DNA of 64,000 nt. It comes from Halorarum halophilum. GTDB lineage: Archaea; Halobacteriota; Halobacteria; Halobacteriales; Haloferacaceae. Below the pieces are notes generated by a model. It saw only the letters and a list, made by a program, of their open reading frames with translations, was not told the origin of the DNA and did not search any database. Each line of letters opens with the position of its first letter. Within the stretch, counting starts at the first letter, position 1. A program made the translations under genes and the position numbers. Location: NCBI RefSeq assembly GCF_013401515.1, contig NZ_CP058529.1:1054001-1118000 (forward strand), in the 5' to 3' direction. Positions 43,516-62,431 of this stretch are shown one piece after another.

Positions 43516-44703
43516 ATGAACGGGAACGAGTTCGGCCGGCTCTTCCGGGTCACCACCTACGGGGAGAGCCACGGCGACGCGATGGGGTGTACGGTGTCGG
43601 GGGTGCCAGCGGGCGTCGAACTGGACGAGGAGACGGTCCAGCACGAACTGGATCGCCGGAAGCCCGGCCAGTCGATGATCACGACGAGCCGCGACGAACC
43701 CGACGCGGTCGAGATCAACTCCGGGCTCCAGGATGGCTACACCACCGGCACGCCCGTCGGAATGGTCATCCAGAACAAGGACGCCAGGTCGGGCAAGTAC
43801 GAGCCGTTCGTCACCGCCCCCCGCCCCTCACACGGCGACTTCACCTACTCGGCCAAGTTCGGCACGCGGAACTGGGGCGGCGGGGGTCGCTCCTCCGCGC
43901 GCGAGACGGTGAACTGGGTCGCTGCGGGCGCCGTCGCCAAGGCAGTCCTCGATCAGAGCGAGTACGACGTCGAGATCAAGGCCCACGTGAACCAGATCGG
44001 CGACATCGAGGCGCCGGAGGTGTCCTTCGACGAGATGCTGGAGCACTCGGAGGAGAACGAGGTCCGGTGTGGCCACCCCGAGACGGCAGAACGGATGCGG
44101 GACCGCATCGACGAGTACCAGCAGGCAGGGGACTCCATCGGCGGCGCCATCTACTTCGAGACCCGCGGCGTCCCGCGTGGGCTCGGCGCGCCGCGGTTCG
44201 ACTCGATCCCGTCCCGCCTCGGTCGGATGATGATGGCCGTTCCGGCGACGACCGCGTTCGAGTTCGGACTCGGCCGCGACGCCCGCGAGGTGACGGGCCA
44301 CGACCGGAACGAGAACTGGGAGTTCGACGAGGGCAACGCGAACGAGGAGACCGTCAGCGAGGAGGGCGAGCCGGTCCCGGTCGGCAACGACCACGGCGGC
44401 CTCCAGGGCGGCATCACCACCGGCGAACCGATCTACGGCGAGGTGTCGTTCCACGCCCCGACGTCGATCCCGAAGACGCAGACGACCGTCGACTGGGAGA
44501 CGGGCGAGGAGAAGGAGATCCAGGTCGTCGGTCGCCACGATCCGGTGCTCCCGCCGCGCGGCGTGCCGGTGGTCGAGGCGGTGCTGTGGTGTACGGTGTT
44601 GGACTTCATGCTGCTCGGTGGACGGATCAATCCCGATCGGCTGGACGGGAAGGTCGGGGAGTACGATACGGACTACCACCCGAGTAGTCCTGAGAACGAA
44701 TAG
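43516..44703 (+). CDS. aroC: chorismate synthase
   Basis: A 395-residue chorismate synthase converting EPSP to chorismate with reduced FMN. The N-terminus NGNEFGRLFRVTTYGESHGD is diagnostic, followed by RRKPGQSMITTSRDEPD and RPSHGDFTYSAKFGTRNWGGGGRSSARETV. The FMN- and substrate-binding arginines and histidines are in place. A TATA box is 30 bp upstream. It is the last GC-rich gene before an AT-rich insert. Confidence 0.96.
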   Translation: MNGNEFGRLFRVTTYGESHGDAMGCTVSGVPAGVELDEETVQHELDRRKPGQSMITTSRDEPDAVEINSGLQDGYTTGTPVGMVIQNKDARSGKYEPFVTAPRPSHGDFTYSAKFGTRNWGGGGRSSARETVNWVAAGAVAKAVLDQSEYDVEIKAHVNQIGDIEAPEVSFDEMLEHSEENEVRCGHPETAERMRDRIDEYQQAGDSIGGAIYFETRGVPRGLGAPRFDSIPSRLGRMMMAVPATTAFEFGLGRDAREVTGHDRNENWEFDEGNANEETVSEEGEPVPVGNDHGGLQGGITTGEPIYGEVSFHAPTSIPKTQTTVDWETGEEKEIQVVGRHDPVLPPRGVPVVEAVLWCTVLDFMLLGGRINPDRLDGKVGEYDTDYHPSSPENE

Positions 44704-44726
44704 CGTTTGAGCTCCTGTGAATTACA

Positions 44727-45020
44727 TTAATTTTTATTCCATCTAGCTGCGTGAAGACTAAATCGCAGGTGTCGATAAAAACTCACCTCAAGAAATTGGC
44801 GGGCAAGTTTCCTTTCGTAATTGTTTATGAATTCATCCTCAAAAGATTGCGATAGTAAGTCACCATCGAATGATTTTGCAATCTCTATGAAGTCGAAATC
44901 ACTTTCAGCAGCATTCTGAAAAAAGTCCCCTATATTAATTGAACCAACTACTTTTTCAAACGCTTCCTCGTTCTCTTGGATAACTTTTGTATCCAAATCT
45001 GAGACAAAGTCCTCAGGCAT
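44727..45020 (-). CDS. AT-rich hypothetical protein, second gene of an inserted pair
   Basis: A 97-residue acidic soluble protein, MPEDFVSDLDTKVIQENEEA, with a more basic C-terminus (RHLRFSLHAARWNKN). There is no signal or motif that I recognise. It overlaps the upstream gene by 8 bp, so the two are translated from one message. Its base composition and AT-ending codons differ strongly from the flanking aroC and porA genes, indicating horizontal acquisition. Function unknown. Confidence 0.65.
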   Translation of the reverse strand: MPEDFVSDLDTKVIQENEEAFEKVVGSINIGDFFQNAAESDFDFIEIAKSFDGDLLSQSFEDEFINNYERKLARQFLEVSFYRHLRFSLHAARWNKN

Positions 45021-45561
45021 CTAGATTAATGTGATCCTCTTCCAAATCAAGGCTAGGGATATTCACATCCTCAGCGTCAACTTCCGCGAGAAATTTGGTC
45101 ATCTCATCTAAATCTACATCTTCAACTTCTCCACGCTGTACCTTTTTCGAGACGAAATTCAGGAGAGATTTCTCGTCATCACAAGCAATTTCAGCGAAAA
45201 TACGAGTTCGGATACAAACTTCAGCCAAAGCCTCTAGTAATTCAATTGATTGCGAATCTACTCCATCGGGTGCGGTTTTTGCATGAGTAAATAATCTATT
45301 TGCCAAGGGTGTAATCGTATCACTGATTTCATCAGGATCAAGAGAATAGGACTGAGTCTGTCGAATCCCTTCCACTGTTACCCGCGAAACCAAATTTTTA
45401 GCTTCATCATACCACTCAGTGACGTTATCAGAGGCTCTAGATTGATTATTCCGATACCTTTTGTACTCATATATTGCAACAGAGACAACAATTCCAAGTA
45501 GAATGCCAATCGTTCCAGTGACCCCATTCCCATTAATCAATTCTATGAAAGATTGCAGCAT
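45013..45561 (-). CDS. AT-rich single-pass membrane protein, first gene of an inserted pair
   Basis: A 182-residue protein with one N-terminal membrane helix (about 11-30, GVTGTIGILLGIVVSVAIYE) followed by a basic stop-transfer YKRYRNN and an acidic cytoplasmic helical domain ending LDLEEDHINLDA. The ATG at 45561 places the helix at the extreme N-terminus; a start 36 codons earlier would add low-quality sequence. No family recognised. Low GC and an 8-bp overlap with the next gene mark a small acquired operon. Confidence 0.65.
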   Translation of the reverse strand: MLQSFIELINGNGVTGTIGILLGIVVSVAIYEYKRYRNNQSRASDNVTEWYDEAKNLVSRVTVEGIRQTQSYSLDPDEISDTITPLANRLFTHAKTAPDGVDSQSIELLEALAEVCIRTRIFAEIACDDEKSLLNFVSKKVQRGEVEDVDLDEMTKFLAEVDAEDVNIPSLDLEEDHINLDA

Positions 45562-45695
45562 AATCTGGCATTCTCTTGTTACCTTATGAATCTGACCCCA
45601 ATCCCTCACGAACGTTCCTTGCGAACCCATAGCAAGGCATTTCACTGGGGCAAAGCTAGTCACGAACACTAGGCCTCTGGAGGGCCCAGATCACT

Positions 45696-47585
45696 ATGGC
45701 AGACGATGAACTCATCTGGCGAATCGCGGGCGGATCCGGAGACGGCATCGCCTCGACGAGCCAGAACTTCGCGAAAGCCCTGATGCGTGCGGGGCTCCAC
45801 GTATTCACGCACCGTCACTATCCGTCGCGGATCCGGGGCGGCCACACCTACGTCGAGGTGCGCGCCTCGGCCGACCCGGTGAAGTCCCGCGGTGACGGGT
45901 ACAACTTCCTCCTTGCGCTAGGCGACTCGTTCGCCCGCAACCCGCAGGAGGAGGCGTACTACGGCAACGAGGAGGTAAAACCGCTCTCGGAGAACCTGGA
46001 CGAACTCCGCGAGGGCGGCGTCATCATCTACGACGAGGGGCTGCTCGACGCGTCCGACATCCCCGACTTCGAGGAGCGCGCCGAGGAGAACGACTGGCAC
46101 GTGTTCCCGCTCGACCTCCGCGGTCTCGCTCGCGAGCAGGGGCGCGAGGTCATGCGGAACACCGCCGGGGTCGGCGCCACCTGCGCCATCACCGGAATCG
46201 AACTCGAGTGGATCGAGGAGCTGATGACCGACGCGATGCCGGACAAGATCCTCGAGCCGAACCTCGAGATCCTCGAGACCGCCTACGAACAGGTGTCCGA
46301 GGAGTACGACGTGGACGCCCCGGACATCAGCGTGCCCGAGGGCGAACACGAGGAGGAACAGCTCCTCATGTCCGGGTCGGACGCAATCGCCTACGGCGCC
46401 ATCGACGAGGGCTGCCGGTTCATCGCCGGCTACCCCATGACGCCGTGGACCGAGGTGTTCACCATCATGACCCAGAACCTCCCCGAACTCGGGGGGATCT
46501 CCGAGCAGGTGGAGGACGAGATCGCCGCGGCCGCGCTCGCGGTCGGCGCCTCCCACGCGGGGACGAAGGCGATGTCCGGCTCCTCCGGCGGCGGCTTCGC
46601 GCTGATGTCCGAGCCGCTCGGGCTCGCGGAGATGTCGGAGACGCCAGTCGTGCTCGTCGAGGCCATGCGCGCCGGCCCCTCGACGGGGATGCCGACGAAG
46701 CCAGAGCAGGCAGACCTCGAGCACGTCCTGTACACGTCGCAGGGTGACTCCCATCGCGTCGTGCTCGCACCGGGAACGGTGCAGGAGGCGTACGACCACT
46801 CCCGGACCGCGTTCCGGCTGGCGTACGACTACCAGATCCCGTCCATCGTGCTGTACGACCAGAAGTTGTCGGGCGAACTGACGAACGTCCCGGCCTCGCA
46901 CTTCGACCGCGACCCGAACCCCTCGATGGGCAAGACGCTCACCGAGCAGGAGATCGCGAACGAACCCCACACCGAGGGGAAGTTCCACCGCTTCCAGCAC
47001 GACGTCGAGGACGGCGTCTCGCCCCGCTCCATCCCGGGGCAGAAGGGTGGACGCCACCTCGTCACCGGCAACGAGCACAACCCCGAGGGCCACATCAGCG
47101 AGGACCCCGACAACCGCATCGCGCAGGTGAACCGCCGGTTCCAGAAGATGGACGCGATCCGTGCGGACCTGGACGAGCGGTCGCTGCTCAGGCGCTACGG
47201 TCCCGAGGATACCGAGTACGGCATCCTCACGTTCGGGAGCCAGCAGGGCACCGTCGAGGAGGCAGTCGACCGGCTCAACGAGAACGGCACCTCCGTGCGG
47301 ATGCTGTCCGTCGGCGAACTCGCGCCGTTCCCGGTCGACGACGTCGAGGCCTTCGTCGAGAGCGTCGACGAGGTGCTCGTCGTGGAGATGAACGCCTCCG
47401 CGCAGTTCCGCGGGCTGACCCAGAAGGAGTTGGGCCGCTACGGCGAGAAGCTGCACTCGCTGCTGAAGTACAACGGCAACCCCTTCGAGCCCGCCGAGAT
47501 CGTCGAGGGCTTCGAGACCAGCATCGTCGAGGACGGGGAGCTCCCCGGTCCCGAGACCAAGTTCGTGCCCGCGGCAGGTGACTGA
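45696..47585 (+). CDS. porA: pyruvate--ferredoxin oxidoreductase, alpha subunit
   Basis: A 629-residue 2-oxoacid:ferredoxin oxidoreductase subunit combining the gamma domain (about 1-200, WRIAGGSGDGIASTSQNFA) and the alpha domain (DAIAYGAIDEGCRFIAGYPM near 230, then SGGGFALMSEPLGLAEM). It makes or uses acetyl-CoA with CoA, TPP and ferredoxin. Length and pairing with a 312-residue beta subunit match the known halobacterial pyruvate enzyme (631 and 312 residues) better than the 2-oxoglutarate enzyme; that choice is from memory. The beta gene follows after 3 bp. Confidence 0.88.
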   Translation: MADDELIWRIAGGSGDGIASTSQNFAKALMRAGLHVFTHRHYPSRIRGGHTYVEVRASADPVKSRGDGYNFLLALGDSFARNPQEEAYYGNEEVKPLSENLDELREGGVIIYDEGLLDASDIPDFEERAEENDWHVFPLDLRGLAREQGREVMRNTAGVGATCAITGIELEWIEELMTDAMPDKILEPNLEILETAYEQVSEEYDVDAPDISVPEGEHEEEQLLMSGSDAIAYGAIDEGCRFIAGYPMTPWTEVFTIMTQNLPELGGISEQVEDEIAAAALAVGASHAGTKAMSGSSGGGFALMSEPLGLAEMSETPVVLVEAMRAGPSTGMPTKPEQADLEHVLYTSQGDSHRVVLAPGTVQEAYDHSRTAFRLAYDYQIPSIVLYDQKLSGELTNVPASHFDRDPNPSMGKTLTEQEIANEPHTEGKFHRFQHDVEDGVSPRSIPGQKGGRHLVTGNEHNPEGHISEDPDNRIAQVNRRFQKMDAIRADLDERSLLRRYGPEDTEYGILTFGSQQGTVEEAVDRLNENGTSVRMLSVGELAPFPVDDVEAFVESVDEVLVVEMNASAQFRGLTQKELGRYGEKLHSLLKYNGNPFEPAEIVEGFETSIVEDGELPGPETKFVPAAGD

Positions 47586-59362: not shown

Positions 59363-60109
59363 ATGAAGCGAAACCGGGCTGGCGCGAAGCGCGTCGGTGC
59401 GGCTGGGGCGGGCGCCCGAGGCCCCGGGCCGTCGCTGCAGGAGGCGCTCGCCGTACTGGGCGAGGGGTGCAGCCTGCTCGTGACGGGGGACGTGCCGACC
59501 GACGCACACCGGGTCGCCGCCGCGCGGTACTTCGGCAACCCGTCGAACGAACGCCGCCGGGTGCTGGGGCTGACACACGACACGCCCCGACCGGACGCGT
59601 GGCTTCCGGGCGCCGTGAACGGCGAGGACGACCACGCCGAGATCGTCTGCATGGACGACGCGCTGCGGGACCCGGCGGCCGTCGACGAATCGCCGGCGGG
59701 TGACGGCGGCTTCTCGCCGGGGGTGGACGATTCGTTCCGTCGGCGGTTCCTCGAGGCGATCGTCGACGTGGGAGACGAGGAGGGCCCCGACGGGATGGCC
59801 CTCCGGGTGGGCCTGTTCCGCGTCGACGGGCTCCGTGCGGCGCTCGGTGCGGAGGACGCGGGGCGACTCCTCCGGGACGCAGCGACGACGACGCGCGAGC
59901 GCGGCGGGATGGCACACTTCCACCTCCCGCGCCGCCCCGCGGAGGAGGGCGACCCCCGGTCGGACTCGACGGTCGACGCGGTTGCGACCCAGCTCGGCGA
60001 ACAGCTGGACGTCGTCGTCGAACTCAGGCTCCGGGACCGGGCGGTCGTCCCGGAGGAGCGCTGGCACATCGACGGCTGGGGGTCGACCGACTGGCACCCG
60101 CTCGGGTGA
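59363..60109 (+). CDS. haloarchaeal DUF7504-like protein, possible degenerate RecA/KaiC-type fold
   Basis: A 248-residue soluble protein. LQEALAVLGEGCSLLVTGDV (about 30-49) looks like the start of a RecA-like domain but has no P-loop lysine or GKT, and RRRVLGLTHDTPRPDAWLPG and VGLFRVDGLRAALGAED follow the style of haloarchaeal KaiC-like proteins. I believe it corresponds to the family annotated DUF7504, from memory. Its stop overlaps the start of the CHAT gene (GTGA), so the pair is translationally coupled. Function unknown; scaffold or regulator of the protease is the simplest guess. Confidence 0.7.
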   Translation: MKRNRAGAKRVGAAGAGARGPGPSLQEALAVLGEGCSLLVTGDVPTDAHRVAAARYFGNPSNERRRVLGLTHDTPRPDAWLPGAVNGEDDHAEIVCMDDALRDPAAVDESPAGDGGFSPGVDDSFRRRFLEAIVDVGDEEGPDGMALRVGLFRVDGLRAALGAEDAGRLLRDAATTTRERGGMAHFHLPRRPAEEGDPRSDSTVDAVATQLGEQLDVVVELRLRDRAVVPEERWHIDGWGSTDWHPLG

Positions 60110-62331
60110 CCAGCGTGAGCGAACCGCGCGAACGCCCGGTAGAGCCGCTGACCCTCGTCTCGGTCGACGGCCCGGCGGACTACGAGATCGCGGACCACAT
60201 CGAGGAGGTCCGCATGCCGCTGCGGGTCGACGACGTGACGGGCTGTCCGAGCCGGATCGACTCCGACGGGAGCTATCCCACCCCCGTCGACGCCCGCTGG
60301 CGGATCACCGCGGGGAGCATCACGCCGCTCTGTACCGCAGACGTGTACGTTCGTACGCCGGACAACGCCGTCGTCGCGACGGCGACGGCCGACAGCACCG
60401 CCACGGTTCCCCCCGGTCGGCACGTCCTCGAACTGTCCACCGCGCCGGTGAAGACGTACCTCTCGCTCGAGGGACCGGCGCTCGTCCGCTACGACGGCCG
60501 CTACCCGACGGTGTCGTTCGACGGGGGTGCTGACCGGATCGAGATCGGGGCGCGCTCGCGCCACGAGACCCCGGCAGGGACGGTGACCGTGACGGAGGAC
60601 CCCGCCGACGTCGCGGCGGGGCTCTCGACGTTCGGGTCGGCCCTGGCGACGACCTCGCCCGAGCGCTCGTTCCCGACGCTCCGCGGTCACCCGCCGCTGC
60701 TCGAACTCGGCGACGACTTCGAGGTTCCGCCGCTCGTCGAACGCGTCGACACGGGCGTCGAACTCGCCGTTCCGTTCGAGTACGGACCGCTCTTCTCCGC
60801 GGCGCCGGCGGCGTACTACCTCGGTGCGAGCATCCACGAGAGCGACCGGCCGTCCCTCGAAGCGGGCGGGCGAAGCTACCGGCTCCCGACGGAACACGAG
60901 GACCTGGCGGCCGAACTCGGGCGGCTCCTGAGGCACTGTTTCACCCTCGACTGTGCGACCCGAGCGTGCTCGGCCGGGTTATACGACGTCGACCTGCAGG
61001 TCCACGAGTCCCTCACGGCGCGGCTGGACCCGCCGTGGTCGGAGTGGTACGAGATGGACCTCGCGGACCGGACGGCGGCGTACCTGGACGTCCCACTGGC
61101 GGCGACGGAGGGCGAGATCGGCTGGCCGCAGACGACGGACGTGAAGCCGGTCGCCGAGAACGCGTCGATCCTCCCGTTCCTCGCTGCCGATCTGTCGACC
61201 GTTCGCTCGCCGCCGCCCACGCCGACGGTACCGAACGGTGGCGGGTCGACCCCCCTCGACGAGTTCGTCCGGAACGAGCGGTCGACGGCGTTCACCAGGG
61301 GCGCGGAACGGGCCGGTTCGGGCGACGCGGCGCCCCCCGACACGTTCCGGAGCCCGACCCAGAACGTGACCGAGGAGGACGAGGCAGTGGTCTCGCCCCG
61401 CCCGGCAGAGAGCACGTCACTCGCGTGGGTGGGTCCCGGCTACCCCATGCGCGCCGCGAAACCCACGGTTGCGGCCTACCGGCGGCGGCTCGATCGGACG
61501 CCGTCCGCGGACCTCACCATCGACGTCACCGTCGTCTGCAACGACAAGCGGATGACCGAGGAGGCGGACGACGTGTACGGCTTCCGCGACCACGTCGTGT
61601 TCGAGGTGACCCAGAAGGACGGCCTGACGGTGGAGGAACTGCGCGAGCTCCTCCGGGGGGAGCACGACTTCCTCCACTACATCGGCCACGTCGACCAACG
61701 TGGCGTGGAGTGTACTGACGGCTTCCTCGACCTGCGGAGCCAGTCGGACACGGGCGTCGACGCGTTCCTGCTGAACGCCTGCACGTCCTACCGGCAGGGG
61801 ATGGCGCTCGTCGAGGCCGGCGCGCTCGGGGGCGTCGTCTCGCTCACCGAACTGCCGAACTCGCTCGCGACGCGGGTCGGCCGTGACCTGGCCCGCCTGT
61901 TCGACGCCGGGTTCCCGCTGGACGCCGCTCTGGACGTCGTCGGTCGCGGGCCGTTCGCCGGTAGCTCGTACACGATCGTCGGTGACCCCCGGGTGCAGCT
62001 GTGTCAGTGTGCGAGTGGAACTCCGATCGTGGTCGATGCGATCTCCGAACCGGAAGACGACGCGATAGAGTTCGACGTGTGGAGATATCCCACGTCCGCG
62101 TTCGAAATCGGCTCGATGTCGGGGGTCGTCTTCGCTGATTCTCAACGTCAGCACGTCGGGTCCGGGCAGTGTGGACAGCTCCGTGTGACGAAGACGGATC
62201 TCGAAAACATGCTCAGCTTCGGGTCGTTCCCCCTATCCGCGGCTGGCCGAATCTACTGGTCTACCGAGTTGACAGCTACCGAACTCTTCGACGCTATGGA
62301 CCCGCAGTCGCAGTCCCCGGACCGGCGATAA
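60106..62331 (+). CDS. CHAT-domain (caspase-like) protein
   Basis: A 741-residue protein from a GTG start. The first ~380 residues form a beta-rich, then mixed domain of unknown type; a low-complexity linker (about 380-440) leads to a C-terminal CHAT peptidase-like domain. The candidate catalytic pair is H528 in HYIGHVDQRG and C559 in FLLNACTSYRQG, followed by LGGVVSLTELPNSLATRVG. The final ~90 residues are a separate segment. CHAT enzymes act in bacterial cell-death and defence systems. It is coupled to the upstream DUF7504-like gene and overlapped antisense by a 45-residue gene. Confidence 0.75.
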   Translation: MTSVSEPRERPVEPLTLVSVDGPADYEIADHIEEVRMPLRVDDVTGCPSRIDSDGSYPTPVDARWRITAGSITPLCTADVYVRTPDNAVVATATADSTATVPPGRHVLELSTAPVKTYLSLEGPALVRYDGRYPTVSFDGGADRIEIGARSRHETPAGTVTVTEDPADVAAGLSTFGSALATTSPERSFPTLRGHPPLLELGDDFEVPPLVERVDTGVELAVPFEYGPLFSAAPAAYYLGASIHESDRPSLEAGGRSYRLPTEHEDLAAELGRLLRHCFTLDCATRACSAGLYDVDLQVHESLTARLDPPWSEWYEMDLADRTAAYLDVPLAATEGEIGWPQTTDVKPVAENASILPFLAADLSTVRSPPPTPTVPNGGGSTPLDEFVRNERSTAFTRGAERAGSGDAAPPDTFRSPTQNVTEEDEAVVSPRPAESTSLAWVGPGYPMRAAKPTVAAYRRRLDRTPSADLTIDVTVVCNDKRMTEEADDVYGFRDHVVFEVTQKDGLTVEELRELLRGEHDFLHYIGHVDQRGVECTDGFLDLRSQSDTGVDAFLLNACTSYRQGMALVEAGALGGVVSLTELPNSLATRVGRDLARLFDAGFPLDAALDVVGRGPFAGSSYTIVGDPRVQLCQCASGTPIVVDAISEPEDDAIEFDVWRYPTSAFEIGSMSGVVFADSQRQHVGSGQCGQLRVTKTDLENMLSFGSFPLSAAGRIYWSTELTATELFDAMDPQSQSPDRR

Positions 62332-62431
62332 CGCTCCCCGCCTGCGACAGCAGTAGCGTCATCGTGAACAGCGCGCCGACCATCTTCGGGTGCTCCGCCA
62401 GGAACTCCGCCATCGCGTTTGTATCGGACAT
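62294..62431 (-). CDS. DUF7503-like single-span membrane peptide (45 residues)
   Basis: A 45-residue protein, MSDTNAMAEFLAEHPKMVGA, with a hydrophobic helix LFTMTLLLSQAGSVIAG and ending GTATAGP. I recognise the pattern of the tiny haloarchaeal family annotated DUF7503 (from memory). A TATAAA box sits exactly 27 bp upstream of the ATG, as for leaderless genes. The last 38 bp overlap the 3' end of the CHAT gene on the opposite strand. Confidence 0.72.
   Translation of the reverse strand: MSDTNAMAEFLAEHPKMVGALFTMTLLLSQAGSVIAGPGTATAGP

Follow-up and report, generated by a model that had tools for sequence, protein, structure and literature searches.

Several described systems resemble, each in part, the locus analysed here. 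In the CHAT-gasdermin (fungal and bacterial), Csx29-Csx30 and SAVED-CHAT modules, a protease with the clan CD CHAT fold and its His/Cys pair is encoded adjacent to a membrane-acting or cleaved partner, as in fungi, where a TPR-CHAT activates its adjacent gasdermin (PMC12881547). The RRNPP systems (Rap-Phr, PlcR-PapR) place a short propeptide beside its receptor; these propeptides have 21-50 aa, a hydrophobic segment and variable last residues, and the receptor lies at -50 to +191 nt (PMC10075063). Fungal het loci and the Dictyostelium tgrB1-tgrC1 locus are made of polymorphic recognition genes, which in tgrB1-tgrC1 encode two polymorphic membrane proteins. Toxin-immunity loci typically have cognate hypervariable pairs. 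The haloarchaeal locus described here shares with the first group the protease and its adjacent partner, with RRNPP systems the short peptide with variable last residues, and with allorecognition loci the presence of alleles that differ strongly between near-identical genomes.

Locus anatomy and protein families

The window, that is, the whole stretch of 64,000 nucleotides that was analysed, covers positions 1054001-1118000 of a 4.28-Mb haloarchaeal genome. A sequence-only reading of this DNA had described a DUF7504-like gene for a putative degenerate RecA/KaiC-like protein, a CHAT-type protease gene and a small membrane peptide on the other strand, and all three were re-found where it had placed them (Table 1). 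The 3′ end of the DUF7504 gene and the CHAT start do share the tetranucleotide GTGA, in agreement with the start and stop coordinates of both genes, the HYIGHVD and NACTS motifs were located at the codons listed, and the minus-strand peptide gene overlaps the CHAT 3′ end as described. The TATA-like box ahead of the peptide gene would be compatible with a leaderless promoter of its own. Elsewhere in the window, about 1 kb (44704-45695) contained no called gene and fell in its lowest-GC part (54% for 44001-46000).

Table 1. Positions of the genes and predicted features of the locus, in window coordinates.
Feature	Positions	Strand	Description
DUF7504 gene	59363-60109	+	ATG 59363 to TGA 60109, 248 aa; optional partner
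CHAT protease gene	60106-62331	+	GTG 60106 to TAA 62331, 741 aa; caspase-like, clan CD
CHAT layout			Beta-rich N-terminal part; protease region, residues ~339-634; C-terminal domain, 636-741; model pLDDT 88.8, pTM 0.89
Catalytic His528	61687-61689	+	In HYIGHVD; invariant in the 60-sequence alignment
Catalytic Cys559	61780-61782	+	In NACTS; invariant in the 60-sequence alignment
CHAT C-terminal domain	62011-62331	+	Residues 636-741; counterpart hypervariable among close relatives (four genera examined)
DUF7503 membrane micropeptide	62294-62431	-	45 aa, convergent with CHAT; 3′ ends overlap by 38 nt
H-P-K	62384-62392	-	Conserved, ahead of the membrane helix; candidate cleavage or recognition site
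Peptide tail	62297-62323	-	Variable; GPGTATAGP, including the conserved C-terminal Gly-Pro
TATA-like TATAAAA	62458-62452	-	Box of the peptide gene predicted from sequence, ~24 nt ahead of the ATG

By profile matches, the peptide is a member of DUF7503 (PF24335; E=2.7e-21, 75.3 bits) and the upstream gene one of DUF7504 (PF24336; E=4.5e-32, 112.4 bits), both above the gathering threshold of 27. The two are Pfam families of unknown function, and a literature search found no paper naming either. Direct searches with the CHAT protein gave no match in Pfam, NCBIfam or PADLOC, and 16 of 60 aligned relatives matched Pfam CHAT (best E 2e-5). We then compared the AF2 model built from the 60-sequence alignment with known structures using Foldseek and VIA-align. 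The protease region matched gingipain R (Z 18.2), separase (16.2), SAVED-CHAT (15.3), Csx29 (14-15) and caspase (10). Together, the structure model and the Pfam CHAT matches of the relatives place this domain in the clan CD caspase-like fold, and with both catalytic residues invariant in the alignment the gene product is a predicted caspase-fold protease with an intact His/Cys pair. The sequence-only reading had taken it for a CHAT/caspase-type enzyme, and the model bore this out rather than pointing to a different fold. Within the protease region, residues ~377-424 formed a disordered, length-variable linker of low pLDDT that separates two of its parts. For the C-terminal domain, a PDB fold search returned no match above Z 3.8, and a profile search of the sequences of solved structures gave none. 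No paper on the CHAT domain in haloarchaea was found in a literature search.

The window's genome carries five CHAT paralogues. The fifth (L021:4689-6779, minus strand) is without a peptide and has lost the catalytic His as well as the Cys, and similar dead CHATs were present in other genomes. Two genomes (G124 and G174) had 9-11 paralogues each, many with longer, divergent convergent peptides (L103, L111, L114-L116, L120, L122, L139, L141, L146). In one genus, 31 of 32 genomes carried a peptide-less CHAT of the NACGS type (L347-L376), and its near-universal presence suggests a second, conserved CHAT role. The viral contigs and phage records searched held no CHAT relatives, and a phage, viral or mobile origin was set aside; some relatives lay on haloarchaeal megaplasmids.

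The protease-micropeptide pair across haloarchaea

The three genes had been proposed as a candidate cassette, to be checked by their co-localisation in other genomes. The linkage of CHAT and peptide stood: a convergent CHAT was present at 40 out of 40 sampled DUF7503 loci and a convergent peptide at 74 out of 82 named CHAT relatives, a set found by CHAT alone whose closest member came from Candidatus Halobonum tyrrellensis. Paired genes were separated by a median gap of 3 nt. Four of the five paralogues in the window's genome had a convergent small membrane peptide (gaps of 0, -13, -4 and -38 nt), and its three Pfam-detectable DUF7503 genes all lay tail-to-tail with a CHAT paralogue; since these matches were all beside a CHAT and the arrangement recurred across the class, the pairing is far beyond chance. 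The pair was conserved while the neighbourhoods changed. CHAT and the DUF7503 peptide are therefore a conserved two-gene unit of convergent genes with abutting 3′ ends.

DUF7504 did not behave as the required third member. It adjoined 24 of 61 canonical CHATs, none of the 35 in the NACGS subgroup and none of the 15 dead ones, and in the window's genome two of nine DUF7504 genes were near a CHAT and seven elsewhere. An obligatory three-gene cassette was rejected on these counts; DUF7504 is an optional accessory of the CHAT-peptide unit.

In order to sample the pair from the protease side, we used 100 stretches from 51 genomes, chosen with a deliberate excess of weakly matching CHATs, and added the five from the window's genome. 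The peptide was found at 50 out of 61 canonical CHATs, leaving 11 live canonical CHATs with none found, at 9 out of 35 of the NACGS subgroup and at 0 out of 15 lacking the His/Cys pair. Live and dead CHATs thus differed (59/96 versus 0/15, Fisher p=3e-6), though detection may explain part of this, given the greater divergence of the dead CHATs. Some NACGS CHATs also adjoined other, divergent convergent peptides with a GP end, and no dead CHAT did. Some genomes inside one genus had no peptide. Tandem CHAT copies with a peptide detectable at one or none of them were also seen (L107, L132, L142, L243, L254), and such copies could possibly serve as donors when the variable block described below is exchanged.

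DUF7503 peptides are single-helix proteins of 42-48 aa, present in 335 of the 391 genomes of the class, usually as one copy. In the phylum, 44 of 295 genomes were positive and all 44 belonged to the window's own order, by which a spread beyond the class was rejected. Among 154 unique peptides, a proline ahead of the helix was invariant and was followed by K or R in 151; a membrane Gln was present in 136 and a C-terminal Gly-Pro in 141. Conservation was lowest in the stretch from the helix end to this GP. pN was 0.04 in the peptide leader and 0.50 in the tail. About 8% of the peptides lacked the final Gly-Pro, ending in -TIS, -TIG, -TID, -TIR, -TVT or similar (L161, L168, L177, L183-L187, L221), and in several divergent peptides of G124 and G174 the GP was internal (GPTNP, GPTDP, GPREP). 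A chance ORF or antisense artefact was rejected, as the peptide was conserved even at loci without gene overlap and the leader pN was low. It is also unlikely that the GP motif is a by-product of overlapping codes, given its retention at positive gaps and its internal position in some divergent peptides.

The P-(K/R) ahead of the helix would be the likeliest cut or docking site. One explanation of the pair, the idea behind the sequence-only reading, is that of protease and substrate, in which active CHAT would cut the peptide after P-(K/R) and the freed helix would permeabilise or signal at the membrane, by analogy with CHAT-gasdermin or Csx29-Csx30. The intact dyad, the near-invariant P-(K/R) directly ahead of a helix with a conserved Gln, the Arg- and Lys-specific gingipains and separase among the nearest folds, the missing peptide at dead CHATs and the fungal TPR-CHAT precedent all agree with such an effector. 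However, cleavage by itself would not account for the hypervariability of the CHAT C-terminal domain and of the tail, which lies beyond the helix, and no defence family was matched. On balance we regard this explanation as unlikely.

Joint variation of the protease C-terminus and the peptide tail

The main feature of the locus, which the sequence-only reading did not contain, is paired hypervariability: it affects ~100 residues at the C-terminus of CHAT and the few residues that end the peptide, head-on neighbours in the DNA. Mean identity fell from 90.8% in the CHAT core to 38.5% in the C-terminal domain in Halorubrum and from 80.7% to 45.3% in genus g29; the effect was milder in g27 (84.8% to 60.9%) and in g6, the genus in which sequence places the Haloferax loci (87.6% to 60.6%). 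In two genomes, the cores were 98.6% identical and the C-terminal domains 36%. Along the Halorubrum CHAT, identity dropped from >0.9 to 0.2-0.5 directly past the protease domain, and the peptide showed 35 near-constant residues, four hypervariable ones and a near-constant end. At the nucleotide level this was a short, sharp dissimilar block bounded by the conserved CHAT core and peptide leader.

Clusters built from the C-terminal domain alone shared peptide tail types: Q-initial, Q/K at position 3, or V/M/L at position 2. Q/K at position 3, for instance, occurred in 7 out of 7 tails of one cluster and in none elsewhere. Permutation tests of cluster against tail were significant in Halorubrum (p=0.0006 and 0.0014) and in g29 (p=0.0008). 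For the whole tail, partial Mantel tests, which can be liberal, gave r=0.30 in g29 and r=0.40 in g27 (p=0.0005 each), and r=0.10 (p=0.09) in Halorubrum. AU tests rejected one common tree for the CHAT core and C-terminal domain.

A natural control was provided by 14 g29 genomes with a second, peptide-less CHAT of the NACGS type, compared over the same 91 pairs, which are not independent. The peptide-paired CHAT had 92.8% identity in the core and 47.7% in the C-terminal domain, while the peptide-less CHAT had 92.3% and 90.7%; C-terminal identity was below 60% in 80 out of 91 pairs for the former and in 0 out of 91 for the latter. C-terminal variability thus accompanies the peptide. The tail of the peptide and the C-terminal domain of its CHAT vary jointly as an allele, with the core and the peptide leader and helix constant. 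Coupling alone is no proof of contact, because adjacent DNA is co-inherited anyway.

The junction of the convergent genes could be a recombination or mutation hot spot between proteins that do not interact. The variable parts had pN/pS of 0.42/0.80 and 0.50/0.75, both below 1 and with pS near saturation, so these ratios did not demonstrate positive selection; the rise of pS along with pN agrees with such a neutral origin, and the tree incongruence would fit gene conversion. Raised pS also fits old allelic lineages swapped by recombination. Against neutrality, the peptide-less paralogue is conserved to its end, the tail keeps its length and GP end, the C-terminal domain retains one invariant Gly and one invariant Trp, and the pair persists across the class in changing neighbourhoods. 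We consider a neutral hot spot distinctly improbable.

A toxin-antidote or halocin-immunity type of locus would also produce coupled variation. The exported or membrane peptide would harm cells lacking the matching CHAT, which would recognise and destroy it. Cognate hypervariable pairs are expected of such loci, the overlapping convergent 3′ ends would permit antisense control, and some lineages have several copies per genome. Yet the near-ubiquity of DUF7503 in the class, usually as one copy, a variable part of merely ~4-6 residues and the absence of the peptide from some genomes inside a genus do not suit a toxin, and this explanation seems very unlikely.

A recognition reading and its relation to known systems

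We slightly favour, over its negation, the reading of the locus as a linked two-gene allelic recognition locus. In it, the C-terminal domain of CHAT would recognise its own peptide by the tail and would gate or direct the protease. The variable domain would bind the short tail; a match, or a mismatch with the allele of another cell, would gate the protease or steer it to the peptide, with a cut or docking near the conserved P-(K/R). The tail-to-tail layout would keep the two specificity parts together in a short block, which would thereby be inherited and exchanged jointly, as in pherotype and allorecognition loci. Because CHAT seems cytosolic and charge placement suggests an outward tail, re-import, an inverse topology or capture before insertion would be needed. 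The Halorubrum Mantel result and the 11 of 61 live canonical CHATs with no peptide found count against this recognition reading.

Cell fusion and mating in haloarchaea favour partners of the same kind, a preference whose basis is open (PMC5496957, PMC7749143), and a strong caspase-like activity, whose gene is not known, has been reported in Haloferax volcanii (PMC3615174). A more specific and rather doubtful possibility is an archaeal pherotype or allorecognition locus, in which fusing, mating cells would display or exchange the tail and an allele match or mismatch would switch the caspase-like protease. If so, the locus would be a candidate for both the Haloferax activity and the same-species mating preference, which are literature leads rather than evidence. 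It would then represent an archaeal self/non-self system built on a caspase relative, whose conserved convergent gene order would keep two specificity determinants together as a single exchangeable block. A widespread caspase-fold protease and the micropeptide that co-varies with it, both present in a tractable genus, make the questions of mating and caspase activity testable.

No described system with the anatomy of this locus was found. In contrast to the CHAT effector modules, the partner is a 45-aa single helix, the genes are convergent instead of co-directional, the CHAT C-terminal domain is hypervariable and no TPR, SAVED or gasdermin was found; the other neighbours vary, some being annotated. 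A role in cell death or defence, known for bacterial CHAT enzymes, would be speculative here: none of six proteins compared with the PADLOC defence models at E values up to 1 was matched. Unlike in RRNPP systems, the receptor would be a protease, with no TPR family among the Pfam matches of the 60 relatives and an N-terminal part modelled as beta-rich; the helix sequence is highly conserved, the genes lie tail-to-tail and the host is archaeal. Compared with tgrB1-tgrC1, a caspase-like protease and a small peptide take the place of the two membrane proteins, and relative to allorecognition loci in general the CHAT-peptide locus is known by its genetic signature alone. Taken singly, the proteins are members of known families; it is the system-level anatomy that appears to be new, a newness that would hinge on recognition being confirmed. 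Altogether, CHAT and its peptide resemble a pair for self-recognition or signalling, of a kind that has no earlier description in archaea.
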